In this document: positions 3,303 through 18,827 of the stretch, one piece after another
How the letters are laid out: each line of letters begins with the position of its first letter
How positions within the stretch are numbered: the stretch's first letter is position 1
Origin: a virus
Reading direction: 5' to 3' (one strand)
IMG/VR virus record: IMGVR_UViG_3300015371_000215
Span: 1 to 21,652 of that record
DNA length: 21,652 nucleotides
Notes under the pieces: generated by a model
Database searches by the model: none
Told to the model about the DNA's origin: nothing
Seen by the model: the letters and a program-made list of their open reading frames with translations, nothing else
Translations under genes and position numbers: made by a program

Positions 3303-4139
3303 GTGAGCACCATGACGTTCGGCCCGCCGATCGTCCTCGACGACGGTCACCTTCCCGTCGCGCCGCCTCACTCACTGCTCAACACCCCCGGCGTTCTCAA
3401 GCCGCCGCCGGACGAGCATTGGCTGAGCGGGGCAACGGTCTATCCGTATCCGGAAGGACCGCCCGCAACGTGGGACCCCTGTTCAGCCGGGACCTTCCGT
3501 GAGAAGGAGGAAGGCTCGGGGGTCGATCTCAATTCGTTCGCGAGCTTCGTCGTCTACCTACCCATCACCTGCTCGTCGATGTCGATCGGTGATCCGGATG
3601 AGTTCATGCGTCGAGCAGAGATTGCGCTCGAAGCAACCGAATCATTCGCGATCGAACAACAGCTCTCCCAGGGAACAGCGATCCCGACCAACCCGTTCTT
3701 CGCGATGGCCGGGGTCGATCTACCAGCAGGAGCCGGGGCGGTCACCGCCGCGATCGGGCTTGCCTGGCTGGAGGAAGCGATCGGAGAAACAGGGAAGCAA
3801 GGGATGATCCACGCGACCCCCGGTCCGATCGCGCACTGGAACAACCTCGGGATCAGCCTGATCAACGGAGAGCTGATCAGCGCCAACGGCAACAGGGTTG
3901 TCTCCGGCGGTGGCTATGCCGGGGCGACACCGAGCGGAGGTGGGGCTGCCGCAGCAGGGCAGTCCTGGGCCTACGCGACCGGCCCAGTCGAAATCAGACA
4001 CTCAGCGGTCGCGATCCCCGACATCTCCGAAGTGCTCGATCGCTCGATCAACGAGGTCACGTTCCGCGCCGAGCGGTACGTGCTCGCGACATGGGACACG
4101 CATCCACATGCGGCCGTCCTCATCGACTGGGCGCCGTAA
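3303..4139 (+). CDS. Virion structural protein of uncertain role (possible second capsid-type protein)
   Basis: A 278-aa protein starts at GTG 3303. It sits between capsid and tail tube genes, so a virion role is likely. Visible features are a Pro-rich N-terminal arm, a VVYLPITCSS strand, a long helix (EFMRRAEIALEATESFAIEQQL), a second helix (AIGLAWLEEAIG), then MIHATPGPIAHW, a Gly-rich loop (VVSGGGYAGATPSGGG) and a closing strand pattern (YVLATWDTHPHAAVLIDWAP). A long spine-like helix, a helix/strand domain and a hydrophobic terminal strand are compatible with an HK97-like fold, so a minor capsid or vertex protein is possible, but a head-tail junction protein is equally open. I do not recognise a named family. 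The stop is followed by a strong Shine-Dalgarno for the tail tube gene. Confidence 0.6.
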   Translation: MSTMTFGPPIVLDDGHLPVAPPHSLLNTPGVLKPPPDEHWLSGATVYPYPEGPPATWDPCSAGTFREKEEGSGVDLNSFASFVVYLPITCSSMSIGDPDEFMRRAEIALEATESFAIEQQLSQGTAIPTNPFFAMAGVDLPAGAGAVTAAIGLAWLEEAIGETGKQGMIHATPGPIAHWNNLGISLINGELISANGNRVVSGGGYAGATPSGGGAAAAGQSWAYATGPVEIRHSAVAIPDISEVLDRSINEVTFRAERYVLATWDTHPHAAVLIDWAP

Positions 4140-4167: not shown

Positions 4168-4827
4168 ATGGCAGTCAACTGCGGCGTCTCCTTCGGCGTC
4201 TGCGCTGTCCGTCTAACGGCGGTGGATGCGGCAGGAAACGTCACCGGCACGACTGACAACTCGTACGTGACCGACAACGTCACGTCGATCAGCCTGACTC
4301 CGAACATCGAGACAGGCGACACGTTCTCGCAGCGCAACGGCTGCGGCTGCTCGGTCGCTCGCTTCAAGGCGAACGACACCTTCAACTGGTTCGAGTTCTC
4401 GCTCGTCGACGCGGCACTCGAACCGGCGATGATGGCGCTCCTGCTTGGCACCCCGACGATCGAGGACGGGGCCGACATCGTCGGCCAGGCGTTCCTCGGT
4501 GCGCTGGAGTGCGGAGAGGACGAGCCTGCCGTCGCACTGGAGTTCTGGACGAAGCACATCGTCGGCTCAGGCCAGGACGGGACGTTCCCCTGGATCCATT
4601 GGGTCTTCCCGAAGACGGTCTGGCAGATGGGCGACAACACCTTCGAGGAGGGCATCGCCCTGCCGACGGTGAACGGCTTCTCCCGCACGAACACCCAGTG
4701 GGGCGACGGACCCTACGGCGACGGCCCGCCCGACGGGCAGGACATCGCCGAGGGTGGCTGGTGGAAGACGGACGTCGATCCGCCGACCGCCGCCTGCGAC
4801 TACCAGAACGTGACGCCGTCCAGCTAG
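4168..4827 (+). CDS. Major tail (tube) protein
   Basis: A 219-aa protein with AAGGGAGG (4151-4158) nine bases before ATG 4168. The C-terminal half contains IHWVFPKTVW, a TFEEGIALPT stretch, GFSRTN, WGDGPYGDG and a final AACDYQNVTP; this arrangement matches my recollection of actinobacteriophage major tail proteins, which end in a similar ACxYQxV motif. The N-terminal half is beta-rich with Cys-containing turns (NGCGCSVARF). It would polymerise into the tail tube around the tape measure protein. The strong ribosome site and the GC stem-loop just after the stop suit a highly expressed structural gene. In most siphoviruses this gene lies directly before the chaperone and tape measure; here the fibre block and connector genes come between. 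Confidence 0.65.
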   Translation: MAVNCGVSFGVCAVRLTAVDAAGNVTGTTDNSYVTDNVTSISLTPNIETGDTFSQRNGCGCSVARFKANDTFNWFEFSLVDAALEPAMMALLLGTPTIEDGADIVGQAFLGALECGEDEPAVALEFWTKHIVGSGQDGTFPWIHWVFPKTVWQMGDNTFEEGIALPTVNGFSRTNTQWGDGPYGDGPPDGQDIAEGGWWKTDVDPPTAACDYQNVTPSS

Positions 4828-4898: not shown

Positions 4899-7800
4899 AC
4901 CGCGATCCTCTTTCCACGCAGGCTCGTCGAACTCAGGGATGTCGTTAGCGCAGGCATCCAGGCTGGGGATGTCCCGACCTATGACGGGGCATCGTTCACC
5001 TTTGGCCCCGGTGGCGGCGGTGGCGGCGGCTCCTTCAGCCTGGGCGTCTCGAACCTTGGCAACACGCTGGGGCAGACAGGGATCACCGGCTCCCGCGTTG
5101 TGCTCGCGGGCGGCAACGGGGTCACCCTCTCGCAGGCCACCGACCTCAACGGTGGCACCGTCACGATCTCGGGGATCACCCAGTCGCTCCAGACGCAGGG
5201 GCTGTTCAACCTCACTCTGAGCGGGAACACCTCGGGGGCGCCCCAGCTGGTCTCCTCTGGGACGCTCACTCTGGCCGGTGGCAGCAACATCACGCTGAGC
5301 CAGAACGGCAACACGATCACGATCATCGGTGACGCGGGTGGTTCGGCGACCGAGTCCTTCGAGTGGATCTACAACACCACCACTAGCGAACCACCTGGTA
5401 ATCAGCAGCTGCGTCTGAACAACGCGAACCAGGCGTTGGCGACGCAGATGTGGATCGACGACGACACCGCCGACGCCGTCGATGCCTCCCTCTGGATGGG
5501 ACTGCTGACGACTGGCTCCCGCATCGTCGTGCAGGACAAGAACGACGCGACGCGCTACGAGGTCTACCAGGTCACCTCGACTCCCACCGACGATGGCGGC
5601 TACTTCGACATCCCGGTCGCGTCGATCGCCTCCGGTGGGGCGCTGCTCGCAGGGCAGCGGGTCAGGGTCACGTTCGTCTTTGGCACCACCCAAGCGCCCC
5701 AGACCGCGATCAGCGGCATCGCCGCTAGCAACACCACCTATACCTCTGGCACGGTGACGATCAGCGGGGTCGGGGGCGGGATCACCGTCTCCTCCAACAC
5801 CGGGCAGAGGATCGACCTCTCGGTCGCTGCCCCGGTCGCACAGACCGGGACGCAGTTCAGCGCCGGGATCTCCGGTGGCAACACCTCGGGTCATTCGGGC
5901 ACCGTCGCCGGGCGGCTTGTCCTCGCGGGCGGCAACAACATCACCCTCAGCGGCTCAAGCAACGGGGCCTCCGAGTCGATCACGATCTCCGCCGCCAGCC
6001 AGACGGTACAGACCCAGAACCTCCACAACCTGACGCTCTCCGGAAACACGGCCGGGGCACTCGCGGCGATCTCCTCGGGGACACTCACCCTCGCGGGCGG
6101 AAACAACATCACCCTCTCGCAGGCGGGGAACGCCGTCACGATCTCGGGCGCAAACGTCGGTGGCGCGCAGACGGGGATCTCCTCGATCGCCGCCTCGAAC
6201 ACGACCTACACCTCGGGCCAGGTTGAGTTCACCGGCTCCGGGATCGTCACCGTCCGCTCTTCGGCAGGCCAGCGGGTCGTGATCGACGCCTCGCAGTCGG
6301 TGCAAACGCAGAGCCTGTTCTCGGCCGGGGCATCGAATCTTGGCAACACGCTTGGCGATACCGGCGTCACTGGCACGCGCCTGGTCTTTGCCGGGATCAA
6401 CAACATCACTCTCTCGCAGAGCACCAATACGGCGGGTGGGACGGTCACGATCTCTGGCCCCTCGGTGGCCGGGGCACAGACAGGCATCTCTGGGATCGCC
6501 AACAGCCAGACGACGTACACGTCGGGCACGGTCTCGCTCAGCGAGCTGGGCGCAATCACCATTCGCTCTACCACCGGGAATCAGTTCCAGCTCTCCGTTG
6601 CTCCGCAGAGCGTGCAGCCCGAGACACAGACCTTCATCGGCGGGATCAGCGCCTCGGACACTCTCTACACCTCCGGCACCGTACGGATCACGGGGGCGGG
6701 CAACATCACCGTCGCCTCCGACACCGGCCAGCGAGTGGTCATCAGCGGCAGCCAGTCGGTTCAGCCCGAGACGCAGACTTTCCTGGGCGGGATCCGCAAC
6801 TCGGAGACGACGTACACCAGCGGCACCGTCAACCTCAGCGGCCTCGCGAACATCACGGTGCGCTCTACCACCGGGAACGCGTTCCAGCTCTCCGTCGCCG
6901 CCCAGAGCGTACAGCCGGAAACACAGACCTTTGTCGCTGGTCTCGCCGCCAGCGACACCACCTACACCAGCGGCACCGTCCGCCTCACCGGGGTCGGCGG
7001 GGGGGTCACGGTCAGCTCGAACACGGGGCAGCGGATCGACATCTCCGTTGCCGCGCCCGTCGCGCAAACCGTGCAGACCCAGAATCTGCACAACGTCACC
7101 CTGAGCGGAAACACCGCCGGGGTGCTGGCCCAGATTTCCAGCGGCACGATGACCCTGGCGGGCGGCAACAACATCACCGTCAGCCAGAACGGCAATGCGG
7201 TCACCATCTCGGGGCCGAACGTCGGCGGCGCGCAGACCGGCATCTCCGCGATCGCGAACAGCGAGACGACCTACACGTCCGGCTCGATCACGCTCTCCGA
7301 ACTCGGCGCGATCACGATCCGCTCGACGACGGGGCAGCGCTTCCAGTTCAGCGTCGACCCGCAGAGCAACCAATCGCTCGGCATGTACGCGGTCGGCAAC
7401 ACCACCGGGGAGTCCTCCTCGACGACCCGGGATGCGCGCACCGTCAGCCTGCGCGGCGACGGGATCGTCTCCGTTGGCTACTCGAACGGCTCGGTTCGGA
7501 TCAGCGCCAGCCAGAGCGTGCAGCCCGAGACGCAAACGTTCATTGCGGGCGTGATCGCCTCCGACACCACGTACACCTCCGGCTCGGTGCGCTTCACCGG
7601 GGTTGGCGGCGGGATCACCGTCAGCTCGAACACGGGCCAGCGCGTCGACCTCAGCGTCGCCGCGCAGACGGTGCAGCCGGGGATCCAGCATCTCGTCGTC
7701 TCCAACACCACCTTCTCCTCCGGCACCGTCAGCCTGTCCGGCTTTGGCGATGTGACGGTCAACACCGCCGCCAACATCATCCGGGTCAGCGCTCCCGTGC

Positions 7801-10800
7801 AGACAGCCGAGTCGCAGTCGATCGGCATGTCGAACATCGGCAACACCTCGGGCACCACCGGGATCGCCTCCGGGGCGCAGGTGCGGATGCTCTTTGCCGG
7901 GGGCAACAACGTCACCCTCTCGCAGTCGCTGAACGGCGCGTCGGGGACGCTGACGATCAGCGCCGCCAACCAGACCGTCCAGACGCAGAACCTGCATAAC
8001 GTCACGCTCAGCGGCAACACCGCTGGCGTGATGGCCCAGATCAGCTCGGGCACGCTGACGCTCGCGGGTGGCAACAACATCACGCTCTCGCAGGCGGGCA
8101 ACGCGGTCACCATCAGCGGCGGCGGCGGCGCGCAAACCGCGATCAGCGGGATCGCGAACTCGCAAACGACCTACACCAGCGGCACCGTCTCGCTCTCAGA
8201 GCTTGGCGCGATCACGATCAGAAGCACGACCGGCAATCAGTTCCAGCTCTCGGTCAACGCGCAAACCGATCAGACGCTGGGGCTGTACGCGCTTGGGAAC
8301 ACGACGGGGGAGTCGTCCTCGACCACCCGTGACGCGCGAACGCTCTCCTTCCGGGGCGATGGGATCGTCAGCGTCGGTTACTCGAACGGCTCCGTCCGGA
8401 TCAGCGCCTCGCAGTCGGTGCAGCCCGAAACACAGACGTTCCTGGGCGGGGTCGCGGCGAGCGACACGACCTACACGTCGGGCACGGTCCGTTTCACGGG
8501 TGTCGGTGGCGGGATCACGGTCTCCTCGAACACCGGCCAGCGGGTCGATCTCTCCGTTGCCGCGCAGACGGTGCAAACCCAGAACATGGTTGCCGTCACC
8601 CTCAGCGGCAACACCTCCGGCGCACAGGCGCTGGTCAGCTCCGGGACACTGACGCTCGCCGGGGGGAACAACATCACCGTCAGTCAGGCCGGGAACGCCG
8701 TCACGATCAGCGGCCCCAACGTGGGTGGTGCACAGACCGGGATTTCGGGTCTTGCCAACTCCCAGACCACGTACACGAGCGGCACCGTCTCGATGTCCGA
8801 ACTCGGGGCGATCACGATTCGCTCCACCACCGGCAACCAATTCCAGTTCTCGGTCAACCCGCAGAGCGTGCAGCCCGAGACAAAGACGTTCGTCGGTGGG
8901 ATCGCCAACTCGCAGACGACCTACACGTCGGGCACCGTCAGCCTCAGCGAACTCGGCGCGGTGACGATCCGTTCGACGACCGGCAACCAGTTCCAGATCA
9001 GCGTCAACGCCCAGAGCGTGCAGCCGGAGACGCAGACGTTCATCGGCGGGATCATCGCCTCCGATACCACCTACACCTCAGGCAGCGTCCGGTTCTCAGG
9101 TGTTGGTGGCGGGGTCACCGTCAGCTCCAACACGGGGCAGCGGGTTGACATCTCGGTCGCAGCCCCGGCGGCGGCGCAGACGGCCATCTCGGGGATCGCA
9201 AACTCGCAGACGACCTACACGTCGGGGACGGTCTCTCTTTCCGAACTTGGTGCGATCACGATCCGGTCGACCACCGGCAATCAGTTCCAGCTGAGCGTCA
9301 ACGCGCAGTCGACCCAGCCGGGGGTGCAGCACTTCGTCGTCTCGAACACGACCTTCTCCTCGGGGACGGTCAGCATCAGCGGCTTTGGTGACGTGACCGT
9401 CAACACCGCCGCGAACATCATCCGCATCAGCGCCCCGGTACAGACCGCGCAGACGGGGATCAGCGGCCTCGCGAACTCGCAGACCACCTACACCTCGGGG
9501 ACAGTGAGCCTCAGCGAGCTGGGCGCAATCACGATCCGCTCCACCACGGGGAACCAATTCCAGCTCTCGGTCAACGCGCAGACGGCACAGACGGGCATCT
9601 CTGGCATCGCGAATAGCCAGACCACGTACACGTCGGGAACCGTGTCGCTGTCCGAGCTGGGCGCGATCACCATCAGGTCGACCACCGGGAACCAGTTCCA
9701 GCTGTCCGTCAACTCACAGACGGTGCAGACGCAGAACCTGCACAACGTCACCCTCTCGGGGAACACGTCCGGGGCGATGGCGCAGATCAGCTCCGGAACG
9801 ATGACCCTGGCTGGGGGCAACAACATCACCCTCTCTCAGGCCGGGAACGCGATCACGATCAGCGCGGGTGGTGGGGCCGAGACACAGACAGCGATCTCAG
9901 GGATCGCCAACTCGCAGACGACCTACACCTCCGGGACGGTCAGCCTCTCCGAGCTGGGCGCGATCACGATCCGTTCCACGACCGGGAATCAATTCCAGCT
10001 CAGCGTTGCCGCGCAGACGGCGGAGTCCCAGAGCATCGGGATGTCCAACATCGGCAACACGTCCGGGACGACCGGGATCGCTTCGGGTGCCCAGGTGCGG
10101 ATGCTGCTCGCGGGTGGCAACAACATCACCCTCAGCCAGTCGCTCAACGGGGCCTCGGGGACGATCACGATCAGCGCCCCGAACGCGCAGACCGGGATCT
10201 CGGGGCTGGCGAACTCGCAGACGACGTACACGTCAGGGACGGTGTCGCTGTCGGAGCTGGGAGCAATCACGATCCGCTCGACGACAGGGAACCAGTACCA
10301 GTTCTCGGTCAACTCCCAGAGCGTCCAGACGCAGAACGTCCACAACGTGACGCTCTCGGGCAACACCGCCGGGGCGATGGCACACATCTCCAGCGGCACG
10401 ATGACGCTTGCGGGCGGAAACAACATCACGCTCAGCCAGGCGGGGAACGCGGTCACGATCTCTGGCGGAGCGGGAGGGGGCTTCTCCGCCGGGGTCTCGA
10501 CCGGCGGCAACACGCAGGGTCAGACCGGGGTCACCGGCACCCGGCTGGTGATCGTCGGCACGAACAACATCACCCTTTCGCAGGCGACCGACGCGAACGG
10601 CGGCACGATCTCGATCTCCGGGCAGTCACCCGCCGGGGGCGCGTTCTCCGGTGGTGTCTCGACCCTCGGCAACAGCAGCGGTGCGACGGGCATTACCGGC
10701 ACCCAGCTTGTGTTCGCCGGGGGCAACAACATCACCCTCTCGCAGACGACGGGGGCAAACGGAGGCACCCTCACCATCTCCGGGCTGGCGTCGTCGGCGC

Positions 10801-11543
10801 TGTCGGCTGTCGCGCCGCTCTCGACAAGCACGAACGGGTCGACGATCTCGATCCTTGGCCCCGCCACCTCGTCGCTGGTTGGCACCAACGGGATCTCGAT
10901 CAGCACCAGCGGCTCCACGATCTCGGTGATGCCGCTGACCGTGTCGTCTCACGCACCGTACGACGAGTCACCGATGGTCACCGGCTTCCAGGGCGCGGGG
11001 ACGCTCCATCTCGCCCCGGTGCGGTTGCCGAACATCCAGTTCGACCGGATCGCGATTGGCCTCCAGATCACCAACGCGACAAACTCGTCCGGCTCGATCA
11101 CTCTCTCACAGTGGGTTGGCCTCTACACCCAGAACGTCAGCACGCTGTCGCTGATCTCCTCGACCAGCGTCACGACGAACTTCACCGGGTCGGGCACCGC
11201 AGGCTCGTACTCGCGCTACGGCGGGCCAAAGCACCTCACGATCCCGTGGACGATGACGCTGACCGGCAGCGACTACTGGATGGGGATCAACCTGCGGACG
11301 ACGAGCGGCGGCGTGGCAGGGCACACCGTCAACCAGCTGCTGCTGTCGAAGTTCACGACCGACCCCTGGTCGGGGATCATCGGTGCTGGCTCCAACGCCT
11401 CCGACCAGCGGCTGCTTGGTCTCGGCGTCTGGTCGGTCTCGACCGCCGGGATGCCAAACAGCGTCGCCTTCACCGACCTTCGCGGCAGCGGCAGCATCGT
11501 GCTCCGCGCACCCGTCTGGCATCTGCGAAGCTCAACGGTATGA
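4896..11543 (+). CDS. Giant repeat tail fibre (2215 aa), apparent ATA start
   Basis: The frame runs from ATA 4896 to TGA 11541-11543. The N-terminus reads TAILFPRRLVELRDVVSAGI after the start and then GDVPTYDG, which resembles the usual beginning of phage tail fibre proteins (MAxLFPRRLxELRDV...VPTYD), supporting this start over the internal GTG at 5100. A poly-Gly linker follows (residues 38-46). Residues from about 46 to 1962 hold roughly 36 beta-rich repeats of 40-55 aa, interrupted at about 149-268 by a single non-repeat domain (FEWIYNTTTSEPPG to VRVTFVFG), a module I recall from other fibres. Residues about 1964-2215 form a distinct C-terminal beta domain (TVSSHAPYDESPMVTGF, GLYTQNVSTLSLISS, YWMGINLRTTS), the likely receptor-binding end. 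Composition is very rich in Ser, Thr, Gly and Asn. The stop overlaps the next ATG (ATGA). Confidence 0.75.
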   Translation: MTAILFPRRLVELRDVVSAGIQAGDVPTYDGASFTFGPGGGGGGGSFSLGVSNLGNTLGQTGITGSRVVLAGGNGVTLSQATDLNGGTVTISGITQSLQTQGLFNLTLSGNTSGAPQLVSSGTLTLAGGSNITLSQNGNTITIIGDAGGSATESFEWIYNTTTSEPPGNQQLRLNNANQALATQMWIDDDTADAVDASLWMGLLTTGSRIVVQDKNDATRYEVYQVTSTPTDDGGYFDIPVASIASGGALLAGQRVRVTFVFGTTQAPQTAISGIAASNTTYTSGTVTISGVGGGITVSSNTGQRIDLSVAAPVAQTGTQFSAGISGGNTSGHSGTVAGRLVLAGGNNITLSGSSNGASESITISAASQTVQTQNLHNLTLSGNTAGALAAISSGTLTLAGGNNITLSQAGNAVTISGANVGGAQTGISSIAASNTTYTSGQVEFTGSGIVTVRSSAGQRVVIDASQSVQTQSLFSAGASNLGNTLGDTGVTGTRLVFAGINNITLSQSTNTAGGTVTISGPSVAGAQTGISGIANSQTTYTSGTVSLSELGAITIRSTTGNQFQLSVAPQSVQPETQTFIGGISASDTLYTSGTVRITGAGNITVASDTGQRVVISGSQSVQPETQTFLGGIRNSETTYTSGTVNLSGLANITVRSTTGNAFQLSVAAQSVQPETQTFVAGLAASDTTYTSGTVRLTGVGGGVTVSSNTGQRIDISVAAPVAQTVQTQNLHNVTLSGNTAGVLAQISSGTMTLAGGNNITVSQNGNAVTISGPNVGGAQTGISAIANSETTYTSGSITLSELGAITIRSTTGQRFQFSVDPQSNQSLGMYAVGNTTGESSSTTRDARTVSLRGDGIVSVGYSNGSVRISASQSVQPETQTFIAGVIASDTTYTSGSVRFTGVGGGITVSSNTGQRVDLSVAAQTVQPGIQHLVVSNTTFSSGTVSLSGFGDVTVNTAANIIRVSAPVQTAESQSIGMSNIGNTSGTTGIASGAQVRMLFAGGNNVTLSQSLNGASGTLTISAANQTVQTQNLHNVTLSGNTAGVMAQISSGTLTLAGGNNITLSQAGNAVTISGGGGAQTAISGIANSQTTYTSGTVSLSELGAITIRSTTGNQFQLSVNAQTDQTLGLYALGNTTGESSSTTRDARTLSFRGDGIVSVGYSNGSVRISASQSVQPETQTFLGGVAASDTTYTSGTVRFTGVGGGITVSSNTGQRVDLSVAAQTVQTQNMVAVTLSGNTSGAQALVSSGTLTLAGGNNITVSQAGNAVTISGPNVGGAQTGISGLANSQTTYTSGTVSMSELGAITIRSTTGNQFQFSVNPQSVQPETKTFVGGIANSQTTYTSGTVSLSELGAVTIRSTTGNQFQISVNAQSVQPETQTFIGGIIASDTTYTSGSVRFSGVGGGVTVSSNTGQRVDISVAAPAAAQTAISGIANSQTTYTSGTVSLSELGAITIRSTTGNQFQLSVNAQSTQPGVQHFVVSNTTFSSGTVSISGFGDVTVNTAANIIRISAPVQTAQTGISGLANSQTTYTSGTVSLSELGAITIRSTTGNQFQLSVNAQTAQTGISGIANSQTTYTSGTVSLSELGAITIRSTTGNQFQLSVNSQTVQTQNLHNVTLSGNTSGAMAQISSGTMTLAGGNNITLSQAGNAITISAGGGAETQTAISGIANSQTTYTSGTVSLSELGAITIRSTTGNQFQLSVAAQTAESQSIGMSNIGNTSGTTGIASGAQVRMLLAGGNNITLSQSLNGASGTITISAPNAQTGISGLANSQTTYTSGTVSLSELGAITIRSTTGNQYQFSVNSQSVQTQNVHNVTLSGNTAGAMAHISSGTMTLAGGNNITLSQAGNAVTISGGAGGGFSAGVSTGGNTQGQTGVTGTRLVIVGTNNITLSQATDANGGTISISGQSPAGGAFSGGVSTLGNSSGATGITGTQLVFAGGNNITLSQTTGANGGTLTISGLASSALSAVAPLSTSTNGSTISILGPATSSLVGTNGISISTSGSTISVMPLTVSSHAPYDESPMVTGFQGAGTLHLAPVRLPNIQFDRIAIGLQITNATNSSGSITLSQWVGLYTQNVSTLSLISSTSVTTNFTGSGTAGSYSRYGGPKHLTIPWTMTLTGSDYWMGINLRTTSGGVAGHTVNQLLLSKFTTDPWSGIIGAGSNASDQRLLGLGVWSVSTAGMPNSVAFTDLRGSGSIVLRAPVWHLRSSTV
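5031..10781 (+). repeat. About 36 protein-level repeats in the fibre gene, seven families
   Basis: Seven repeat families can be told apart. A: IANSQTTYTSGTVSLSEL with ITIRSTTGNQFQLSV, about 12 copies including one variant. B: ASDTTYTSGTVRFTGVGGG with SSNTGQRVDLSV, 6 copies. C: QNLHNVTLSGNTAG with ISSGTLTLAGGNNITLSQ, 7 copies. D: QSIGMSNIGNTSGTTGIASG, 2 copies. E: GNTTGESSSTTRDART, 2 copies. F: VVSNTTFSSGTVS with VNTAANIIR, 2 copies. G: GVSTLGNSSGATGITGTQLV-like, 5 copies. Families alternate in partly repeated orders such as B-C-A. Each unit looks like three or four short strands. Nucleotide identity between copies is much lower than protein identity. A single non-repeat domain interrupts at about 5340-5697. 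Confidence 0.85.
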
Positions 11544-11731
11544 CCGACCAGCAGCTCCTCCTTTCGCTCAACACGAAGGTCGAGTTGCTGGAGCAGATCG
11601 TCTCCGACCACGCGCAGCGGTTTGACACCTTGCAGACGCCTCTCTGGAAGCGGCTCTGGTTTCGGCTCGATGGCTGGCCGGGGCAGAACGATCTGAACGC
11701 GGAGCGGCGGGCCTGGAGGCCGTGGCACTAG
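11540..11731 (+). CDS. 63-aa coiled-coil protein coupled to the fibre
   Basis: The ATG at 11540 overlaps the fibre TGA (ATGA), and the TAG at 11729-11731 directly abuts the next ATG, so it is translationally coupled on both sides. The N-terminal half has a heptad pattern (LLLSLNTKVELLEQIV) suited to a short coiled coil. The C-terminal half is aromatic and basic (LWKRLWFRLDGW, then ERRAWRPWH). There is no transmembrane segment long enough to be convincing. Small proteins of this look follow fibre genes in several actinophages, but I know no function. A fibre trimerisation or attachment helper is one idea (inference). Confidence 0.65.
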   Translation: MTDQQLLLSLNTKVELLEQIVSDHAQRFDTLQTPLWKRLWFRLDGWPGQNDLNAERRAWRPWH

Positions 11732-13465
11732 ATGGCGACGCAGTTGTTCTTCCAGACCAGCAACACACTGGCCGATACCCACCGTGGCACGAACACGGCC
11801 AAGCGGGACGGAACAGCGGTGGGATGGATTCCGGTCGCGCTTTCCACATCGCGGGGGGCTGCGGCCGTCAGTGTGACGGGCGTCACGGTCACCGGCCCGA
11901 CCAATGGTGTCGAGCTGGAGGCGGCTAGCTCCACTGCTGAGTGGCTCACCCCGCCGGTCGCTGTCGACGTCACGATCTCGGGGACGATCACGGCCAACAT
12001 CTGGGCGTTAGAGAACAGCATGAACGCGAATGTCGCGATCAACGTGATCATCGACATCGTTCGCGCCAACTCCTTCGCGGGCGATGGGTCGAACACGATC
12101 ACGAACATCGTTCAGAGCACGAACGCGACCGAGCTTGCACTTGCTGCCGCCGTCAACAACTTTACGAGCGGAATGACCTCGGGTGCGTACACGGGGCAGA
12201 CGGTGAACCGTGGTGACCGGATCAGAATCAGGATCGTTGGCGGCGACGCTGGGGTTATGGCAACGGGGTTCAATTTCTCGGCCCGAGTGTCCGGCCCGAC
12301 CGCCGACGCCGACGGTGACAGCTACGTCACGTTCACCGAGGACATCACGTTCGAGAACGCGCCCGGAACGGCAGTCATTTCGTCAACGGACGCGGCGAAC
12401 CCCCAAGGCATTGGTGCGACAGCCAGTTCGACGCAAGCAGCATGGGGTTTTACCGCGCAAGGCACTCTGACCGAAGTTCGGGCGACGCTCTATAAGGCCG
12501 GGGCACCGACGGACAACCTTGTGCTGGAGATCCAGAGCGACTCTGCGGGAGTCCCATCGGGATCTGTCGTTGGTACGGTCGCCACAGTCGGCGGCGCCTC
12601 GCTGACGACGACTGCCACCGAGTACACCTACTCCGTCTCCATCTCGCTCACCGCGAGCACAACCTACTGGCTTGTCATGCGGCGATCTGGGGCGGTTGAT
12701 CTCAGCAACGCCTACCAAGCAAGGTATGCGACGGCTGGCTCATTTCCGAGCGGGTATGCCGGACACTTCCGCTTCGACGGGTCATCCTGGGTCAGCCTGG
12801 GAGGCATTGGAGCGGCTGTTGCGTCGCGGTTGACGTTCGCGACCGGGGGCACCACGACGCTCTATCTGACCGACACCGCCTCCGCCGTCTCGACCGCCTC
12901 GGTCGACCGCGAGGCGTGGACGTCACGCGGCAGCGGTGTCGTCAACGACGTGACGAACACGGCGGCCGGGTTCACCACCCCGATCCAGGTGACCGACACT
13001 GCCGGGGGCACCGTCGTCGACTGGTTCACGAAGCAGTTGCAGGCGGTGACGTTGACCGGGATGGCGCAGGCGAACATCCGCGCGCTCGAATCCGCGATCG
13101 CGGCGAACGCCTCGATCCGGGTGGAGATCGCGCGCGTCGAGGGCGACGGCAGCAGCCCCACCGTGTGGGCGTCGTGGTGTATCGCGCCGTCCGGTCTTGA
13201 CTTCGGCGAACTCACCACGTCGGAGGTGGCGCGAACCGCGAACGTCTCGGGTGACGACCTGGCGATCACGGATGGGCAGCGGCTGCGGATCCGGCTCTAC
13301 ATCGATGACATATCGACGACGGCGATGGGCGCGGGCCAAACCGTCACGACCTACTACAACGGCACCTCGGGTGGTGCCTCCGGCGACAGCTACATAACCT
13401 TCCCGGCGACGCTGACCGAGTTTGAAATCATTCCCGCTTCCATCGGCTTTCTGAAAACGCTGTGA
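11732..13465 (+). CDS. Minor tail/fibre-like protein with duplicated end modules
   Basis: A 577-aa beta-rich protein begins at ATG 11732, 12 bases after a GGAGG. It has three parts. Residues 1 to about 213 (TQLFFQTSNTLADTHRG to DGDSYVTFTEDITF) and about 373-577 (TTLYLTDTASAVST to SGDSYITFPATLTEF) share the same order of motifs: an opening TT/TQLxF/YxT strand, an ANIW/RALE helix with N/AAN, a D/GxRIRIR strand and a closing SGDSYITF strand, so one is a duplicate of the other. Between them, about 216-370, lies a different jelly-roll-like module (VRATLYKAGAPTDNLVLEIQ, GVPSGSVVG, TTYWLVMRRSG, FRFDGSSWVSLGG) resembling choice-of-anchor domains of secreted proteins. Placed after the giant fibre, it is likely a virion adhesin or minor tail protein; no enzyme motif is visible. 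Confidence 0.65.
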   Translation: MATQLFFQTSNTLADTHRGTNTAKRDGTAVGWIPVALSTSRGAAAVSVTGVTVTGPTNGVELEAASSTAEWLTPPVAVDVTISGTITANIWALENSMNANVAINVIIDIVRANSFAGDGSNTITNIVQSTNATELALAAAVNNFTSGMTSGAYTGQTVNRGDRIRIRIVGGDAGVMATGFNFSARVSGPTADADGDSYVTFTEDITFENAPGTAVISSTDAANPQGIGATASSTQAAWGFTAQGTLTEVRATLYKAGAPTDNLVLEIQSDSAGVPSGSVVGTVATVGGASLTTTATEYTYSVSISLTASTTYWLVMRRSGAVDLSNAYQARYATAGSFPSGYAGHFRFDGSSWVSLGGIGAAVASRLTFATGGTTTLYLTDTASAVSTASVDREAWTSRGSGVVNDVTNTAAGFTTPIQVTDTAGGTVVDWFTKQLQAVTLTGMAQANIRALESAIAANASIRVEIARVEGDGSSPTVWASWCIAPSGLDFGELTTSEVARTANVSGDDLAITDGQRLRIRLYIDDISTTAMGAGQTVTTYYNGTSGGASGDSYITFPATLTEFEIIPASIGFLKTL

Positions 13466-13474
13466 GGAGAGCGC

Positions 13475-14206
13475 ATGTCTGATGCAGACGCCCCCACCAT
13501 CATCATCGGCGGCGACGTCGGTGTTCACAACAAGAAGCCCTCCCAGACCCGCAAGCGAATCAAGGAGGGCAAGGGCTACCGCGACCTCTCGACGGTGATG
13601 GTCTGCCCGACGAGAGGCTCGATCCCGGCACGCGTCGTCCAGTCGATGATGGACATGGTGCCGATGATGAACCAGGCCTTCGTGCGGATGTTCATCGAGC
13701 GGATGGAGGTCGCCGATGCCTACAACCAGGCGGTCGAGCTGATCCTCAACCACCCGGCGCTGACGAACTTCAAGTACATGCTCACGTTCGAGGAGGACAA
13801 CATGCCTCCCCCGGACGGCCTCCACCGGCTGTTCGAGTCGATCGACGAGTACGCGATCGTCGCGGGCCTTTACTACACCAAGGGCGACGGCGGGCAGCCG
13901 ATGATCTACGGCGACCCGAAGGGGATGCTTGGCTTCCAGCCGCAGGTGCCACGGGTCAACCAGGTGCAGGAATGCAACGGCACCGGGATGGGCTTCACCC
14001 TGTTTGACATGAACCTGTTCCGCGACGAGCGGATCCCGAAGCCGTGGTTCCGCACTCTCAACGAGTGGACACCCGAGGGGGGCGCGCGCGTCGGCACGCA
14101 GGACCTGTACTTCATGGGCAACGCCCGCAAGGTCGGTTACCGGATCGCCTCCGACAATCGGGTCAAGGTCGGTCATTACGACGCCGCCAACCGCATAGTT
14201 TGGTGA
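13475..14206 (+). CDS. Glycosyltransferase-like protein in the fibre block
   Basis: A 243-aa protein with GAGGAG (13464-13469) five bases before ATG 13475. It looks like a GT-A-fold glycosyltransferase: an early strand and turn (TVMVCPTRGSIP), a helix with a substrate-type Asn/Asp (RMEVADAYNQAVE), then the expected acidic motif after a hydrophobic strand, YMLTFEEDNMPP (E106-E107-D108-N109). Later come YAIVAGLYYTK, an acceptor-side CNGTGMGFTLFD segment and a C-terminal SDNRVKVGHYD with H234 as a possible metal ligand. Phage proteins with this pattern are usually annotated as glycosyltransferases. The sugar and target are unknown; the neighbouring Ser/Thr-rich fibre is the obvious candidate (inference). 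Confidence 0.65.
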   Translation: MSDADAPTIIIGGDVGVHNKKPSQTRKRIKEGKGYRDLSTVMVCPTRGSIPARVVQSMMDMVPMMNQAFVRMFIERMEVADAYNQAVELILNHPALTNFKYMLTFEEDNMPPPDGLHRLFESIDEYAIVAGLYYTKGDGGQPMIYGDPKGMLGFQPQVPRVNQVQECNGTGMGFTLFDMNLFRDERIPKPWFRTLNEWTPEGGARVGTQDLYFMGNARKVGYRIASDNRVKVGHYDAANRIVW

Positions 14207-14217
14207 AGCGGTAGCCC

Positions 14218-14349
14218 GTGACGAACGTCCTGCACGTCATAGGCGACGACGCCAACCCGGGTGCGGGAACGCTGGAGGTGATCCCCGATCCGACCGGCAC
14301 CCTCCCCAGCCGCGAGCTGGGCGGGGTGATGTGGGTGGGCACGCTCTGA
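14218..14349 (+). CDS. 43-aa hypothetical peptide
   Basis: GTG 14218 opens a short frame (MTNVLHVIGDDANPGAGTLE, then IPDPTGTLPSRELGGVMWVGTL) that ends at TGA 14347-14349, sharing one base with the next ATG. The upstream spacing (11 bases after the previous stop) and stop-start overlap support a translated gene, and the bases otherwise have no gene assigned. No Shine-Dalgarno is evident. It appears to be two or three beta strands. I do not recognise a function. Confidence 0.5.
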   Translation: MTNVLHVIGDDANPGAGTLEVIPDPTGTLPSRELGGVMWVGTL

Positions 14350-15719
14350 TGGCCGTCCGCGAGTTCAACGGCACCAGCGACCGGCTTGTCGTCGACAACG
14401 GCACGCTCGGGGCGGTCGCCAACTCGGCCTTCTCCATCTTCATCCTGGTACGCCCGACGACGCTGGGCGCGGGCGAATGCTACGTCTCCTGCGAGACGGG
14501 GGCCGTCGACGTGTTCGGGTTCTTCGACAACGCTGGCGGCGGCGGGCAGGTGGCGCTCGGCGACACGAACGAGTACATCAGCGGCACCGTCGGCGAGACC
14601 GCTGCCGCGTGGCAGCTGATGGCGGTGACCTGGGCTGGCCCGGGCACCACCCCCCGCTTCCATCGCAAGGAGCGCGGGGCGGGATCGTGGACGCACCAGG
14701 ATGGCTCCGGTGCGTTCACCGGCTCCGCCACGGCGATCACCCAGATCTCGTTCGGGGCGGTGCTGAACGGCAGCTTCTCGTCGTGGAAGGACATGCGGCT
14801 GGCGGTGGCGGCGGTGTGGAGTTCCGCGCTCACGGACGGCCAGATCGAGTCGATCGAGACGACGCCCGCCTCGCAGACGGTCTACGACCTGAACCCGGTC
14901 AGCATGTGGGAGTTCAACCAGGCCGCGATCACCTATCCCGTCACCGACGCGATGGGGAACGGGGCGAACCAGACGATCATCGCGGGCACCACCGTCGTCA
15001 CCGGGGCCGACCCGACCGGCTGGACGTTCGGTGCGGTCCCCGACCCGTTGCGCTCCAGCGTCGGCTTCGGAGCCTCGGTCGCTGCCGGTACCTCGATCAC
15101 GGTGACGAAGCCCACCGACGCCGTGAGCGGAGACAAGATCTGGGCCGTGATCGTCAACCAGAACACGAGCAACCCGGTCACCGCCCCCGACGGCACCTGG
15201 ACACAGCTGGAGCTGATCGAGATGACCGTGCCACAGTCGAACTCGCTGACGTACTGGGAGAAAACGGCCGGGGGATCAGAGCCTTCGACCTACACGTTCA
15301 CGCAGACCGACAGCTGCCACTGGGTCTCGATGTGCATCGCGGCCGGTGGGGGTACGGTCACCCGCTACAACCAGGACGCGGGCACCGACACGACGGGGCC
15401 GGACCACGCCTCCGGGCTGATCTCGACCACGGCGGCAGGAGACCTTGTCCTCTACTTCTTCGGGCAGGACAACGCCACCTCGCCCGGGGCGTGGAACATC
15501 GGCACCTTCCCTACCAACCTGAGGCTGCTGGGGCAGGTGTGGGGAAGCGACTCGCAGGGGATGGCGGGCTTCGTCGAAGTGCGCGCCGCTGCGGGCAGCG
15601 GCAACGCCGAAGCGACGCAGACGACAGGGGGCGCGCCCACGCGTGGCTCGGTGTGGGTCGATTGGGCAGCGCATCTAACCGCTGGCGTGACGAACGCCCT
15701 CGCCTGGATAAGAGCCTAG
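14349..15719 (+). CDS. LamG-like (concanavalin A-fold) tail protein
   Basis: ATG 14349 overlaps the preceding TGA by one base; an in-frame GTG at 14331 is less likely because MAVREFNGTSDRL is the customary start of such proteins. The 456-aa product begins with a LamG/laminin-G-like domain (about residues 1-215): FNGTSDRLVVDNG, an SIFILVRP strand, WQLMAVTW, and the typical closing segment MRLAVAAVWSSALTDGQIESI. The C-terminal half (about 235-456) is a second beta sandwich (GDKIWAVIVNQNT, LTYWEKTAGGSEPSTYTFT, ADLVLYFFGQ-like strands) of unknown type. LamG domains commonly bind carbohydrate, so an accessory adhesin on the tail is plausible. No catalytic motif is visible. Confidence 0.65.
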   Translation: MAVREFNGTSDRLVVDNGTLGAVANSAFSIFILVRPTTLGAGECYVSCETGAVDVFGFFDNAGGGGQVALGDTNEYISGTVGETAAAWQLMAVTWAGPGTTPRFHRKERGAGSWTHQDGSGAFTGSATAITQISFGAVLNGSFSSWKDMRLAVAAVWSSALTDGQIESIETTPASQTVYDLNPVSMWEFNQAAITYPVTDAMGNGANQTIIAGTTVVTGADPTGWTFGAVPDPLRSSVGFGASVAAGTSITVTKPTDAVSGDKIWAVIVNQNTSNPVTAPDGTWTQLELIEMTVPQSNSLTYWEKTAGGSEPSTYTFTQTDSCHWVSMCIAAGGGTVTRYNQDAGTDTTGPDHASGLISTTAAGDLVLYFFGQDNATSPGAWNIGTFPTNLRLLGQVWGSDSQGMAGFVEVRAAAGSGNAEATQTTGGAPTRGSVWVDWAAHLTAGVTNALAWIRA

Positions 15720-15739
15720 TTCACTAGTGACGAAGCTGC

Positions 15740-15754
15740 TAGGGTCAGCCCGTG
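15740..15754 (+). promoter_or_regulatory. Candidate leaderless -10 element for the methyltransferase gene
   Basis: TAGGGT (15740-15745) lies exactly six bases before GTG 15752, and no Shine-Dalgarno is present. In actinobacteria TAnnnT at this distance places the transcript start at the first base of the start codon. No clear -35 is seen; the palindrome TCACTAGTGA (15721-15730) occupies that region. Confidence 0.45.
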
Positions 15755-16300
15755 GCCGGGCTAAAGCTCGATCTGGGATGCGGGCAACGGCCAACGCCCG
15801 GATTCAAGGGCGTCGACATCATGCCGGGAGAGGGCGTCGAGTACGTCCACGACCTGTGGGAATACCCGTGGCCGTTCAAGGACCGCTCCGTTCGCGAGGT
15901 CGTCTCCAACCACCTGATCGAGCACATCCCGCACTACCGTCCCGACTGGGGTGGTGTCGACGGCTTCTGGATGTTCTTCAACGAGCTGTACCGGATCTGC
16001 GCCAAGAACGCAAAGCTCACCTTCACCTGTCCTTACGCGAAGGGTGACCGTGCCTTCTGGGACCCGTCACACACCCGCTACATCCACGAGACGAACTTTT
16101 ACTACCTCTCACCCGAATGGCTGGAAGCGCAGGGGTTGCAGCACTACCCGGTCAGCTGCAACTTCGAGATCGTCACGATCGACGGCCTGGGGGTGCCCGA
16201 CGAGATCATGAACCGCAACGCCGAGATGCAGGCGCAGGCCCGCAGCTACTACTGGAACGCGGTCACCGATCTGTCCGTCCAGCTCAAAGCCATAAAATGA
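15752..16300 (+). CDS. Class I SAM-dependent methyltransferase
   Basis: A 182-aa protein starting at GTG 15752. Motif I is clear: LKLDLGCGQ (D7-L-G-C-G11) for SAM binding, followed by GFKGVDI with acidic D22 after strand 2. A methyltransferase-11-type motif NHLIEHIP (H54, E57, H58) and a later ELYRICAKNAKLTFTCPY (strand 5 region) follow, then DPSHTRYIHETNFYYLSPEWL. This pattern matches small phage and bacterial methyltransferases of the COG4627 type. The target is not evident: methylation of a glycan, a virion protein or a small molecule are all possible; no DNA-methyltransferase motif (DPPY/NPPY) is seen. It follows the LamG-like gene and is unlike its neighbours in having no Shine-Dalgarno. 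Confidence 0.75.
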   Translation: MAGLKLDLGCGQRPTPGFKGVDIMPGEGVEYVHDLWEYPWPFKDRSVREVVSNHLIEHIPHYRPDWGGVDGFWMFFNELYRICAKNAKLTFTCPYAKGDRAFWDPSHTRYIHETNFYYLSPEWLEAQGLQHYPVSCNFEIVTIDGLGVPDEIMNRNAEMQAQARSYYWNAVTDLSVQLKAIK

Positions 16301-16307
16301 GCGCATG
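16293..16307 (+). promoter_or_regulatory. Candidate leaderless -10 element for the 29-aa membrane peptide
   Basis: TAAAAT (16293-16298), inside the last codons of the methyltransferase gene, lies exactly six bases before ATG 16305. No Shine-Dalgarno or clear -35 is visible. Confidence 0.45.
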
Positions 16308-16394
16308 TCCGTCACCAAGTCAGAAGCGCTGTTGGCCGCGATCGCGATCGCGTTGTGGGTCTGGGTTTTGTTCGGCGCGAACTTGATCGACTAG
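16305..16394 (+). CDS. 29-aa single-span membrane peptide
   Basis: ATG 16305 begins five bases after the methyltransferase stop and ends at TAG 16392-16394. The product starts MSVTKSEALLAAIAIALW and continues VWVLFGANLID: a short charged head and about 18 hydrophobic residues, enough for one transmembrane helix. Support for translation comes from the snug fit between neighbours, the -10-like element six bases before its ATG, and the sharply hydrophobic composition. It is far shorter than a usual holin. It could be a small membrane protein of the phage or a regulator, or it could be a chance frame. Confidence 0.45.
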   Translation: MSVTKSEALLAAIAIALWVWVLFGANLID

Positions 16395-16415
16395 GCAGCG
16401 TCCGCCGCACACTCC

Positions 16416-16430
16416 TAGAATGCGCCCATG
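16416..16430 (+). promoter_or_regulatory. Candidate leaderless -10 element for the head-tail adaptor gene
   Basis: TAGAAT (16416-16421) lies exactly six bases before ATG 16428. There is no Shine-Dalgarno in the 33-base gap and no clear -35. This could start the connector-tail transcript. Confidence 0.5.
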
Positions 16431-17543
16431 CTTGGCCCTGGCCTGCCCGGCTCCACGATGGAGGCCTTCTCAGAAGGGTTCCCCTGTGGACTAGTCGGGA
16501 CGATCGGGGTCACGATCGACGATGGCAACGGCAACAACGTGTTGCCGCGCACGACCGCGAACATCCTTCAGCTTGAGTGTGTCGCCGACATTGCGGTGTA
16601 CCGCTATCTGGGCGTGTTCCCAGACGGGACGGCGGAAGGCCCCTACATCCTCACCTGGGATGACACGGTCAACCTCGCCACCGAGGAGATCACCGTCTCC
16701 ACCGACGCACCGGTTGTTCCTTCCGGCGTCGGTCCCTGTGCCTCCTGGATCGAAGCAGCCGACGTCGTCGCCTGTTGCTCGGGGACAGAGCTTGACTCGG
16801 ACAATGCCGAGTCGCTCGAACTCGCCGCACGAGTCGCCTCGGAGCTGCTGTTTGAGCTTTCCGGCGGCAAGTTCTCCGGTCTCTGCGGTCCGATCACCGT
16901 TCGTCCTTGCCGTGACAACTGCTCCTGCTGGGGTGGGCAGCGGCTTGACTACGTCGAGGCGGGGGGTTGGCGCTGGCTGTGGGGCGGCAGCGAATGGAGT
17001 CACGGAGCCAGCTCCTGCGGCTGCGGCTGTCTCTCGCAGGTCAAGCTGGCGGGCTACCCGGTGCAGGGGGTTAGCCAGGTCAAAATTGACGGCGAGGTCG
17101 TGCCCCCGTCCGAGTACCGGCTTTACCAGAAGCGCTACCTGACGCGGATGAACGGCGAGTTCTGGCCCGCCTGCCAGGATCTCTCGCTCGAAGACGACCA
17201 GCCGGGCACGTTCTCGATCTCCTACTGGTACGGCCGCACGCCCTCCGCGCTCGCCGAGGCCGCTGCCGCAGCGCTCGCCTGCAACATCTTCCGTCTCTGC
17301 GCCAGCGAGGGGGCGGGTGACTGTGCGCTCCCGACCGGTGTCACCCGGCTCACCCGCCAGGGCGTGACGATGGACAAGTCCGCCACGATCGCCTGGTTCT
17401 ACGGTCAGCAGGGCGACAAGGGCTGGCGGACAGGGATCCAGATCGTCGACAACTTCCTCAACGCCTACGCCCCCTATGGGATGCGGCGACCACCGATGAA
17501 CTACAGCCCCGACGGGCGAAAGTTCGCCAAGCAGCTCAGCTAA
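16428..17543 (+). CDS. Head-tail adaptor protein with an N-terminal beta domain
   Basis: A 371-aa protein from ATG 16428 to TAA 17541-17543. Residues 1 to about 93 form a beta-sandwich-like domain (LVGTIGVTIDDGNGNNV, LPRTTANILQ, GPYILTWDD, EEITVST) like the small Ig-like domains carried by phage connector or fibre proteins. From about residue 105 (CASWIEAADVVACC) comes the adaptor proper: a helix with SLELAARVASELLFELSGGKF, then a Cys-rich section (GLCGPITVRPCRDNCSCW, SSCGCGCLS) and a C-terminal helical section (SALAEAAAAALACNIFRLC). This Cys-rich pattern is what I recall for actinophage head-tail adaptors (gp6/gp15-like). It would cap the portal ring. The closely packed Cys residues could bind metal (inference). 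The stop overlaps the next ATG. Confidence 0.7.
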   Translation: MLGPGLPGSTMEAFSEGFPCGLVGTIGVTIDDGNGNNVLPRTTANILQLECVADIAVYRYLGVFPDGTAEGPYILTWDDTVNLATEEITVSTDAPVVPSGVGPCASWIEAADVVACCSGTELDSDNAESLELAARVASELLFELSGGKFSGLCGPITVRPCRDNCSCWGGQRLDYVEAGGWRWLWGGSEWSHGASSCGCGCLSQVKLAGYPVQGVSQVKIDGEVVPPSEYRLYQKRYLTRMNGEFWPACQDLSLEDDQPGTFSISYWYGRTPSALAEAAAAALACNIFRLCASEGAGDCALPTGVTRLTRQGVTMDKSATIAWFYGQQGDKGWRTGIQIVDNFLNAYAPYGMRRPPMNYSPDGRKFAKQLS

Positions 17544-17857
17544 TGGGGAAGGTGATCGTCAATCAACAGGCACTGGAACAGCTCCTTGGGTCGCGCACAG
17601 GCGCTGTCGGTCAAGAGATCGAACGGCGTGCGCAGGAGGTTGTGGCTTTTGCCCGCGAAGAGGTTGAGTCGGTCATGCACCGGAACCCCGGCTGGGGAGA
17701 CGTGGTGGATTACGCGATGGAACATGAAGTCGTGGCGGTGATCGGCTTCAAGGACTCCCCGCCCGAGGATCTGCCGCCGACCTACACCTATCTCGGGAAC
17801 AAGGAAATCCGCGAAGGTCGCTTCCTGGAGCGGGCACTCTGGCGTGAGTTCGGCTAA
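17543..17857 (+). CDS. HK97 gp10-like tail completion/joining protein
   Basis: A 104-aa protein whose ATG (17543) overlaps the adaptor TAA (TAATG) and whose own TAA overlaps the next ATG in the same way, so all three connector genes are coupled. The N-terminal helix (LEQLLGSRTGAVGQEIERRAQEVV) followed by a strand pair (EHEVVAVIGFKD, PPTYTYLGNKEIREG) and a terminal helix (FLERALWREF) is the gp10-like arrangement. Position between adaptor and tail terminator agrees. The family joins head and tail or completes the tail end. Family assignment is by layout and position. Confidence 0.65.
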   Translation: MGKVIVNQQALEQLLGSRTGAVGQEIERRAQEVVAFAREEVESVMHRNPGWGDVVDYAMEHEVVAVIGFKDSPPEDLPPTYTYLGNKEIREGRFLERALWREFG

Positions 17858-18366
17858 TGGGCGAAGGCCCCGGCGACCTGCACGCTCTCGCGGTCGAGTA
17901 CCTCGCCGCCTGCGTCGCAGCACTCGACACGATCCCTGACTACGAGACCGAGCTACTGGGGGCGCCCCTACGGTCGCTGGTCGCTCCTGGCCCACCGGCC
18001 TTTGACTGCTGCGACCAGCTGGCGGTGCACGTCGCCCCGATCACGGAGCGCGAGGTCGTCAAGGGCAGCAACATCAACCAGGTCAACCTGATTGTCCACA
18101 TCACCCGTTGTGTGCCGATGCCCGACGACGATGGCAACCCGCCGCCCCCGTCGGAGCAGCAGGCAGCGGCGGCGCAGATCAACGCTGACAAGTGGGCGCT
18201 CTGGAACTACCTGCACATGCTGATCGAAGACGGTCTACTGTTCGAGCGCTGCTGCGGGGTGCTGTGGGGGACGTTGTCCCCGTTGACCCCGAGCGGTGGT
18301 TGCGGCGGTTCACAGCTCACCCTCACGGTGTGCTTCGACGGGTACGAAGCGGTGCCCTCAACATAG
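17857..18366 (+). CDS. Tail terminator protein
   Basis: A 169-aa protein begins at ATG 17857 in a TAATG overlap. The N-terminal helix (LHALAVEYLAACVAALD) is followed by a CCDQLAVHVAPI strand, VNLIVHITRCVPMPDDDG, a helix with NADKWALWNYLHMLIEDGLL, a RCCGVLWG turn, and the closing strand SGGCGGSQLTLTVCFDGYEA. That order, with a paired Cys and a final DGY strand, is what I recall for actinophage tail terminators, which cap the tail tube and bind the head connector. A GC stem-loop begins immediately after the TAG. Confidence 0.65.
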   Translation: MGEGPGDLHALAVEYLAACVAALDTIPDYETELLGAPLRSLVAPGPPAFDCCDQLAVHVAPITEREVVKGSNINQVNLIVHITRCVPMPDDDGNPPPPSEQQAAAAQINADKWALWNYLHMLIEDGLLFERCCGVLWGTLSPLTPSGGCGGSQLTLTVCFDGYEAVPST

Positions 18367-18391
18367 AAGCCGCCCTCGGGGAGGACGGCTT
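18367..18391 (+). terminator. GC stem-loop after the tail terminator gene
   Basis: AAGCCGCCCTC (18367-18377) pairs with 18381-18391 with one C-A mismatch and a GGG loop. It begins on the base after the stop codon. No U-tract follows. It is the third stem-loop lying just after a structural gene and just before a strong Shine-Dalgarno. Confidence 0.45.
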
Positions 18392-18416
18392 CGGATAACC
18401 CTCAGGGAGGGACGGT

Positions 18417-18827
18417 ATGAAGAGTTTTTCGGGAGAGAAGGATCGCGACTTTGAGGTGATGGGGGAGGCCTTCCGTTGGGTCTATCCCTACTGGGAGGAC
18501 ATCGCCGACCAGTTCGACCGTGACGACGAGAGCGACGAGGAGAAAGAGGCGACGGAGACGAACGGCAACGTCTCGGTCACCGTCCGCTCGACGCTGTCGG
18601 ACTTCATCCACAGGATCGAGCTGTTCATCGACCCCGACTTCAACGACGGTGTCAATCGTTGGCGGAAGCTGACGAAGCGGCGGAAGGACCCGATTCCGCA
18701 CACGCAGTATTCGGCGATCTACCAGTACCTGCTGGAGGTGACGTCGCGGCACCCTACCGATCCATCCTCGCCCTCGGAGGATGGGCAACTTCCAATCGAG
18801 CCTACGTCAGTGGCAGGCTCGTCCTAG
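18417..18827 (+). CDS. Tail assembly chaperone, short form (gpG-like)
   Basis: A 136-aa protein with AGGGAGG (18404-18410) six bases before ATG 18417. It is acidic and helical at first (FEVMGEAFRWVYPYWEDIAD, DDESDEEKEATE) and ends in a Ser/Pro-rich tail (TDPSSPSEDG, SVAGSS). Its place directly before the tape measure, its size, and the overlap with a long open -1 frame are the standard signs of the G/GT chaperone pair. The short form would be made in excess and coat the tape measure during tail tube assembly. A separate tail-like acidic insertion at about residues 38-48 is visible. Confidence 0.75.
   Translation: MKSFSGEKDRDFEVMGEAFRWVYPYWEDIADQFDRDDESDEEKEATETNGNVSVTVRSTLSDFIHRIELFIDPDFNDGVNRWRKLTKRRKDPIPHTQYSAIYQYLLEVTSRHPTDPSSPSEDGQLPIEPTSVAGSS

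Follow-up and report, generated by a model that had tools for sequence, protein, structure and literature searches.

TAnnnT hexamers at the start codons of a head-tail adaptor gene and two neighbouring cargo genes in a probable actinobacteriophage

Leaderless genes of actinobacteria carry the hexamer TANNNT about 12 bp 5' of their start (Zheng et al. 2011, PMC3160421). The viral locus described here raises the question whether three consecutive genes, encoding a putative methyltransferase, a short hydrophobic peptide and a head-tail adaptor, are expressed in the same manner, as was proposed in an earlier note that described them as a leaderless cluster. The window, i.e., the whole stretch of DNA analysed, is a 21.7 kb viral contig (21,652 bases) with a GC content of 65.7%. 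Its gene order runs from the C-terminus of the portal protein via a glycosyltransferase, the major capsid protein, a pentamer-type protein and the major tail protein to a stretch of cargo genes, which is followed by the head-tail adaptor, coupled small genes, chaperone-like genes and the tape measure (Table 1). The capsid protein has relatives in 826 phage records; the ten genera listed for these records, with five further names beyond the listing, all belong to actinobacterial hosts, and the relatives of capsid and adaptor are named for such hosts. Judged from this kinship, the host of the virus is very probably an actinobacterium.

Table 1. Features of the window that bear on the three hexamer-led starts; the role of the pentamer-type protein is assigned from its position and from matches in annotated relatives.
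Feature	Position	Strand	Remarks
Major capsid hexamer protein	1441..3213	+	Shine-Dalgarno (SD)-led; contrast gene
Capsid pentamer-type protein (PHROG 779)	3303..4139	+	SD-led; contrast gene
Major tail protein	4168..4827	+	SD-led; contrast gene, left border of cargo site
Cargo stretch, tail tube to methyltransferase	5100..15719	+	Site variable in relatives
Large repetitive protein	5100..11543	+	Within cargo stretch
Cargo gene	11732..13465	+	Within cargo stretch
Glycosyltransferase	13475..14206	+	Within cargo stretch
Cargo gene	14331..15719	+	Within cargo stretch
TAGGGT, -10-like	15740..15745	+	Followed by CAGCCC and GTG 15752 (methyltransferase start)
Putative SAM-dependent methyltransferase (LDLGCG motif)	15752..16300	+	GTG start, predicted leaderless; cargo gene
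TAAAAT, -10-like	16293..16298	+	Followed by GAGCGC and ATG 16305 (peptide start)
29-aa hydrophobic (membrane) peptide MSVTKSEALLAAIAIALWVWVLFGANLID	16305..16394	+	Predicted leaderless
TAGAAT, -10-like	16416..16421	+	Followed by GCGCCC and ATG 16428 (adaptor start)
Head-tail adaptor (PHROG 783)	16428..17543	+	E 1.6e-51; predicted leaderless
Small gene, TAATG overlap with adaptor stop	17543..17857	+	Probably on adaptor transcript
Tail-module gene (PHROG 810), TAATG overlap with 17543..17857	17857..18366	+	

Hexamers and start classes in the window

TAnnnT occurs 15 times on the plus strand of the window. Scanning of both strands for TAnnnT-N6-RTG returned only the starts at 15752, 16305 and 16428 (GTG, ATG and ATG), with none on the minus strand. 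The first T is located at exactly -12 in all three, so that the coordinates and the six-base spacing reported earlier proved exact, as did the statement that no other start of the window has the pattern. At each other spacing from 3 to 12, at most one TAnnnT precedes an ATG or GTG, and the only intergenic TAnnnT sites on the plus strand are those 5' of 15752 and 16428. With 15 starts and 15 sites placed at random, at least three pairs would share a preset spacing with a probability of 1.9e-7, which rises to 3.9e-6 when 21 spacings are allowed for, in agreement with the earlier opinion that such a triple coincidence is unlikely by chance.

No SD-like match precedes any of the three starts, and the starts at 1441, 3303, 4168, 13475 and 18417 do carry SD matches; the earlier note had likewise seen no SD at the three and strong SDs at capsid, tail-tube, chaperone and one glycosyltransferase starts. 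A poor or absent SD is not confined to the hexamer-led genes and is also seen at 17543 and 17857, which have a stop-start overlap (TAATG), and at 11732 and 19079, which directly follow a TAG. The starts at 690, 5100 and 14331 were assigned to none of the SD-led, stop-start and TAnnnT-N6 classes.

The hexamer TAAAAT lies within the 3' end of the methyltransferase gene, which reads ATA AAA TGA (stop). Both sense codons are rare choices in the window, where ATA accounts for 6 of 348 Ile codons (1.7%) and AAA for 8 of 121 Lys codons (6.6%), giving a joint probability of 0.0011; the methyltransferase genes of relatives have ATC AAG or GTG AAG at this position. The 15740 hexamer is directly preceded by TGC, which makes it an extended -10 (TGN). 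A convincing -35 (TTGACA-like at 16-18 bases) was found at none of the three hexamers, which counts against their being promoters of leaderless genes; the best -35-like element, TAGGCA at 16392-16397 with an 18-base spacer to TAGAAT, brings the consensus matches to 9 of 12, which is no better than in shuffles. A ten-base palindrome, TCACTAGTGA (15721-15730), is located just 5' of the methyltransferase hexamer and was not seen in the relatives that were read.

Recurrence and gene specificity in related phages

A purpose-built gene finder that relies on codon usage was applied to 16 uncultivated contigs of related phages and to 15 cultured actinophages, and TAnnnT was counted 0-25 bases 5' of the resulting candidate, not proven, starts. 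The uncultivated set together with the window contained 47 hexamers at spacing 6 and 31 at spacing 7, versus 1-11 at the other spacings, and the cultured actinophages contained 49 and 66, respectively, versus 1-17 elsewhere. In-frame internal ATG and GTG codons, which served as control, displayed no excess (9 and 21 at spacings 6 and 7, versus 3-26), and neither did the starts of five GC-rich proteobacterial phages of Pseudomonas, Caulobacter and Burkholderia. Within single records the enrichment reached p = 2e-18 (G015), 5e-13 (Saguaro) and 2e-12 (phiAsp2); several phages, e.g., G006, G009, G012 and Cece, had no peak. Thermus phage P23-45, intended as a positive control, had no peak either (8 versus 7.0 expected), a result that neither supports nor harms the case. 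The earlier proposal of leaderless starts in the actinobacterial style is favoured by these counts, as the spacing is that of the published signal and the peak at 6-7 bases is present in the kin and absent from the proteobacterial phages. Two further observations were made in the uncultivated contigs. Leaderless starts in G005 and G013 (L069 at 686, 1866 and 3052; L045 at 1040; L057 at 1446 and 10235) share CACCTATTAGGTG-like palindromes 5' of the -10, which are possibly an operator, and G015 (L059-L062) has repeated extended -10 sites resembling TGTGATATCTT at many leaderless starts.

A single-sequence search with the window adaptor returned no viral relative; alignment searches did find relatives. 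An alignment of Mycobacteriales-type adaptors retrieved 75 loci from viruses and 13 from bacterial genomes, and 86 loci were scored. TAnnnT-N6/7 precedes the adaptor start in 76 of these 86 loci and in 43 of 53 less redundant representatives, thinned by shared 4-mers only, and none of the 53 has an SD-like match. More distant adaptors have an SD or neither signal, which was counted against the leaderless reading.

The start type differs by gene. By orthologue over all records, in sets that overlap because some IMG/VR records are cultured phages, the starts of the capsid hexamer protein (18 SD, 0 leaderless), the pentamer protein (44 SD, 1 leaderless) and the tail tube (70 SD, 1 leaderless, 1 both) add up to 132 SD versus 2 leaderless and 1 both. 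Adaptor starts in the same count were leaderless in 47 cases, both in 4, SD in 12 and neither in 17. The tape measure was leaderless in 25 of 26 cases, all at spacing 6, and its start (Gyarad 20233 and 24 others) is conserved beyond the hexamer as TAGCCTGACC-N2-GTGACC, even among proteins whose identity falls to about 30%. Portal starts were divided over 7 leaderless, 6 SD and 12 neither, and the leaderless ones include every one of the five cultured phages of this Mycobacteriales kind that were tested. The Mycobacteriales rule does not extend to the tape-measure start of the window or to the portal starts of its nearest relatives, and this, too, was counted against the leaderless reading. In the annotated genome of Gyarad, leaderless starts are located at the portal (4441), adaptor (17069), tape measure (20233) and lysin A (40388) genes and at a few unnamed genes. 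Some annotated starts are probably too early, with the signal pointing to a later position: 16940 rather than 16916 for the CloverMinnie adaptor (MN234196), 25854 rather than 25824 for the NTR1 adaptor (MF477236), and 40388 rather than 40379 for Gyarad lysin A (JX649099).

In 46 Mycobacteriales adaptor promoters (among L142-L225), the C at -13 from the hexamer is invariant and is part of a GCACC element that takes the place of a -35; the same set has A at -12 in 38, C at -11 in 39, G at -14 in 33 and G at -2 in 37 promoters. In five cultured phages, with late-region boundaries set by the analyst from annotation and gene order, C-13 was present at 29 of 31 sites in the late region versus 16 of 29 elsewhere (p 6e-4), and TTG at the -35 position at 1 of 31 versus 8 of 29 (p 0.01). 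At the Mycobacteriales spacing, GCACC is absent before the three hexamers of the window, and the element was therefore not used for the window.

Closest relatives and the junction between tail tube and adaptor

By tblastn, the methyltransferase gene was found in the relatives G001 and G002 (76-79% identity) and not in G003 or the other relatives; phage genes annotated as methyltransferase were 33% identical, and searches with the protein against Pfam and PDB gave no hit. The peptide gene has a coding-like third-position GC of 0.90, and its homologue is absent from both methyltransferase-bearing relatives. The closest adaptor by tblastn is that of G003 (43% identity, with 71% in the capsid).

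The earlier note had named homologous loci without the hexamers as evidence against its proposal, and the outcome is divided. The G003 adaptor retains the signal as TACACT-N6-ATG. The adaptors of G001 and G002, i.e., two of the three near relatives, have lost the first T (GAGAAT-N6-CTG-ATG and GAGAAT-N6-GTG, respectively). The methyltransferase signal is only partly kept, as TAGGGT-N9-GTG in G002 and with an SD instead in G001, and the peptide is missing in both. Both the adaptor losses and the incomplete methyltransferase signal were counted against the leaderless reading. The glycosyltransferase (85-87%) and the methyltransferase are far nearer to G001 and G002 than is the adaptor (37-38%), which suggests exchange of cargo.

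The distance from tail-tube stop to adaptor start varies from 76 bases to 5.9 kb in 48 representative loci, with cargo on either strand (L142-L229), and amounts to 11.6 kb in the window (4828-16427). The methyltransferase and the membrane peptide are cargo at this variable junction. In many relatives the gene 5' of the adaptor is on the opposite strand, and the adaptor there cannot rely on coupling to that gene. Of 53 loci, 15 have stems of at least 10 pairs in the interval that separates the tail tube from the adaptor promoter, versus 1 of 53 shuffles; long GC-rich hairpins, some followed by T-rich runs, were seen 5' of the adaptor in L161, L168, L175, L203, L220 and others. With respect to the features of a moron, the methyltransferase varies in presence between conserved virion genes, and as to a promoter of their own only the -10-like hexamer was seen at the cargo genes. 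A scan of positions 13000-19200 of the window revealed no terminator-like site, and for this reason the methyltransferase and peptide were not filed as strict morons.

Explanations for the hexamers and their possible meaning for late gene expression

The best overall explanation, which we consider likely, is that the hexamers are -10 elements of promoters that yield leaderless mRNAs, with a separate promoter for the adaptor and cargo genes that are self-promoted. Each transcript would begin on, or 1-2 bases from, the A or G of the start codon, and the methyltransferase, the membrane peptide and the adaptor would be read from leaderless mRNAs by the ribosomes of the actinobacterial host. The adaptor promoter would be part of the late virion module and would open a new transcription unit, comprising the adaptor and the coupled genes downstream of it, behind the capsid and tail-tube genes with their SDs. 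The two cargo genes, methyltransferase and peptide, would each have a leaderless promoter. A promoter belonging to the adaptor itself would allow cargo to enter between tail tube and adaptor without silencing of the tail genes. Leaderless initiation at the three starts is, as a prediction from the DNA, well supported. The notion of one special cluster was not supported in the form proposed: the adaptor start belongs with a recurrent feature of the late module in many phages, and the methyltransferase and peptide with the cargo of a variable site.

The locus may also be read as one long late mRNA on which ribosomes reinitiate past the upstream stop codon without need of an SD, with hexamers that are incidental or act as weak internal promoters. 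The peptide start is only 4 bases past the methyltransferase stop, the starts at 17543 and 17857 clearly make use of a stop-start overlap, and the lack of a terminator-like site at 13000-19200 agrees with a continuous transcript. The 32 and 33 bases that separate 15752 and 16428 from the preceding genes are, however, long for stop-start coupling, the opposite-strand genes upstream of many related adaptors argue against it there, and the fixed spacing of the hexamers is left unexplained; we consider this reading improbable. Slightly less probable still is that the hexamers are genuine -10 elements with transcript starts a few bases away, giving very short leaders rather than leaderless messages. 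The TAGGGT-N9-GTG of the G002 methyltransferase and the GAGAAT-N6-CTG-ATG of the G001 adaptor are consistent with a leader of 0-3 bases, but the counts are concentrated at spacings 6 and 7 and nearly vanish at 5 and at 8-9, which argues for a transcript start that is tied to the first base of the codon. It is hardly credible that the hexamers are there by chance or serve some other purpose, be it as an unstructured landing pad for ribosomes that work without an SD or as remnants of stop codons: TAG does open two of them, and a TGA stop overlaps the third, but neither TAG (15740, 16416) is the stop codon of the gene called upstream, and chance was rejected by permutation, by the lack of a peak at internal codons and by the GC-rich phages of non-actinobacterial hosts.

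A further alternative concerns timing rather than mechanism, and holds that the methyltransferase and the peptide have leaderless promoters which work in the lysogen, as privately expressed cargo, and not late in infection. Both genes are located at the variable cargo site, and Mycobacteriales-type adaptor relatives occur in bacterial genomes, presumably as prophages. On the other hand, the 21,652-base fragment has no sign of a temperate life style, and neither an integrase nor a repressor was recognised in it; we regard lysogenic expression as rather unlikely.

The predicted leaderless promoters resemble those of actinobacterial leaderless genes (PMC3160421) in hexamer, position, lack of SD, ATG or GTG starts and GC-rich genome, and differ in that the genes are those of phage virions, repeatedly portal, adaptor and tape measure, with a host that is deduced from kin. 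In cluster O mycobacteriophages (Corndog), the leaderless promoters PL1, PR2 and PL2 have been predicted (PMC4351075), likewise with an actinophage -10 at a distance that puts +1 on the initial base of the start codon. Those promoters scored as SigA-like with both -35 and -10, whereas no convincing -35 accompanies the three of the window; the genes that recur in the present data are portal, adaptor and tape measure. In Deinococcus-Thermus, TANNNT directly before open reading frames has been shown by experiment to be the -10 of a promoter for leaderless mRNA (PMC12340547), albeit in another phylum and for host rather than phage genes. The classical lambda cI gene, as cited in that paper, is also a phage gene read from a leaderless mRNA, there a single E. 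coli repressor gene and here virion genes. For portal, adaptor or tape-measure genes, no report of leaderless starts was found in the open-licence PMC literature; such reports may exist elsewhere.

According to a 2022 review, few late promoters of mycobacteriophages have been characterized and further investigation is warranted (PMC9262239). A fixed -10 on the start codons of portal, adaptor and tape measure predicts late promoters exactly, to the single base, in phages that are in culture and easily grown, and the signal flags probable start-codon errors in deposited genomes. In Mycobacterium smegmatis reporters, leaderless constructs yielded smaller amounts of mRNA and protein than did a strong construct with a leader (PMC7148126), which fits, and does not prove, a relation between scarce particle parts and leaderless starts. 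Tentatively, and with more doubt than confidence, actinophages of this capsid type might set the ratio of their parts by start type, with SD-led genes for hexamer, pentamer and tail tube, and separate late leaderless promoters for portal, adaptor and tape measure; in Mycobacteriales phages these would have GCACC ending nine bases before TAnnnT and would perhaps be aided by a phage factor, and the window adaptor would be an outlying example without GCACC. Judging by the relatives, TAnnnT at this distance from the start codon is a recurring, gene-specific habit of such viruses, found at scarce particle parts, whereas the proteins of shell and tube, which are abundant, start from ordinary ribosome-binding sites. 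Start type may, in this manner, offer a virus a simple means to keep the particle proteins needed in few copies and those needed in many at separate levels.
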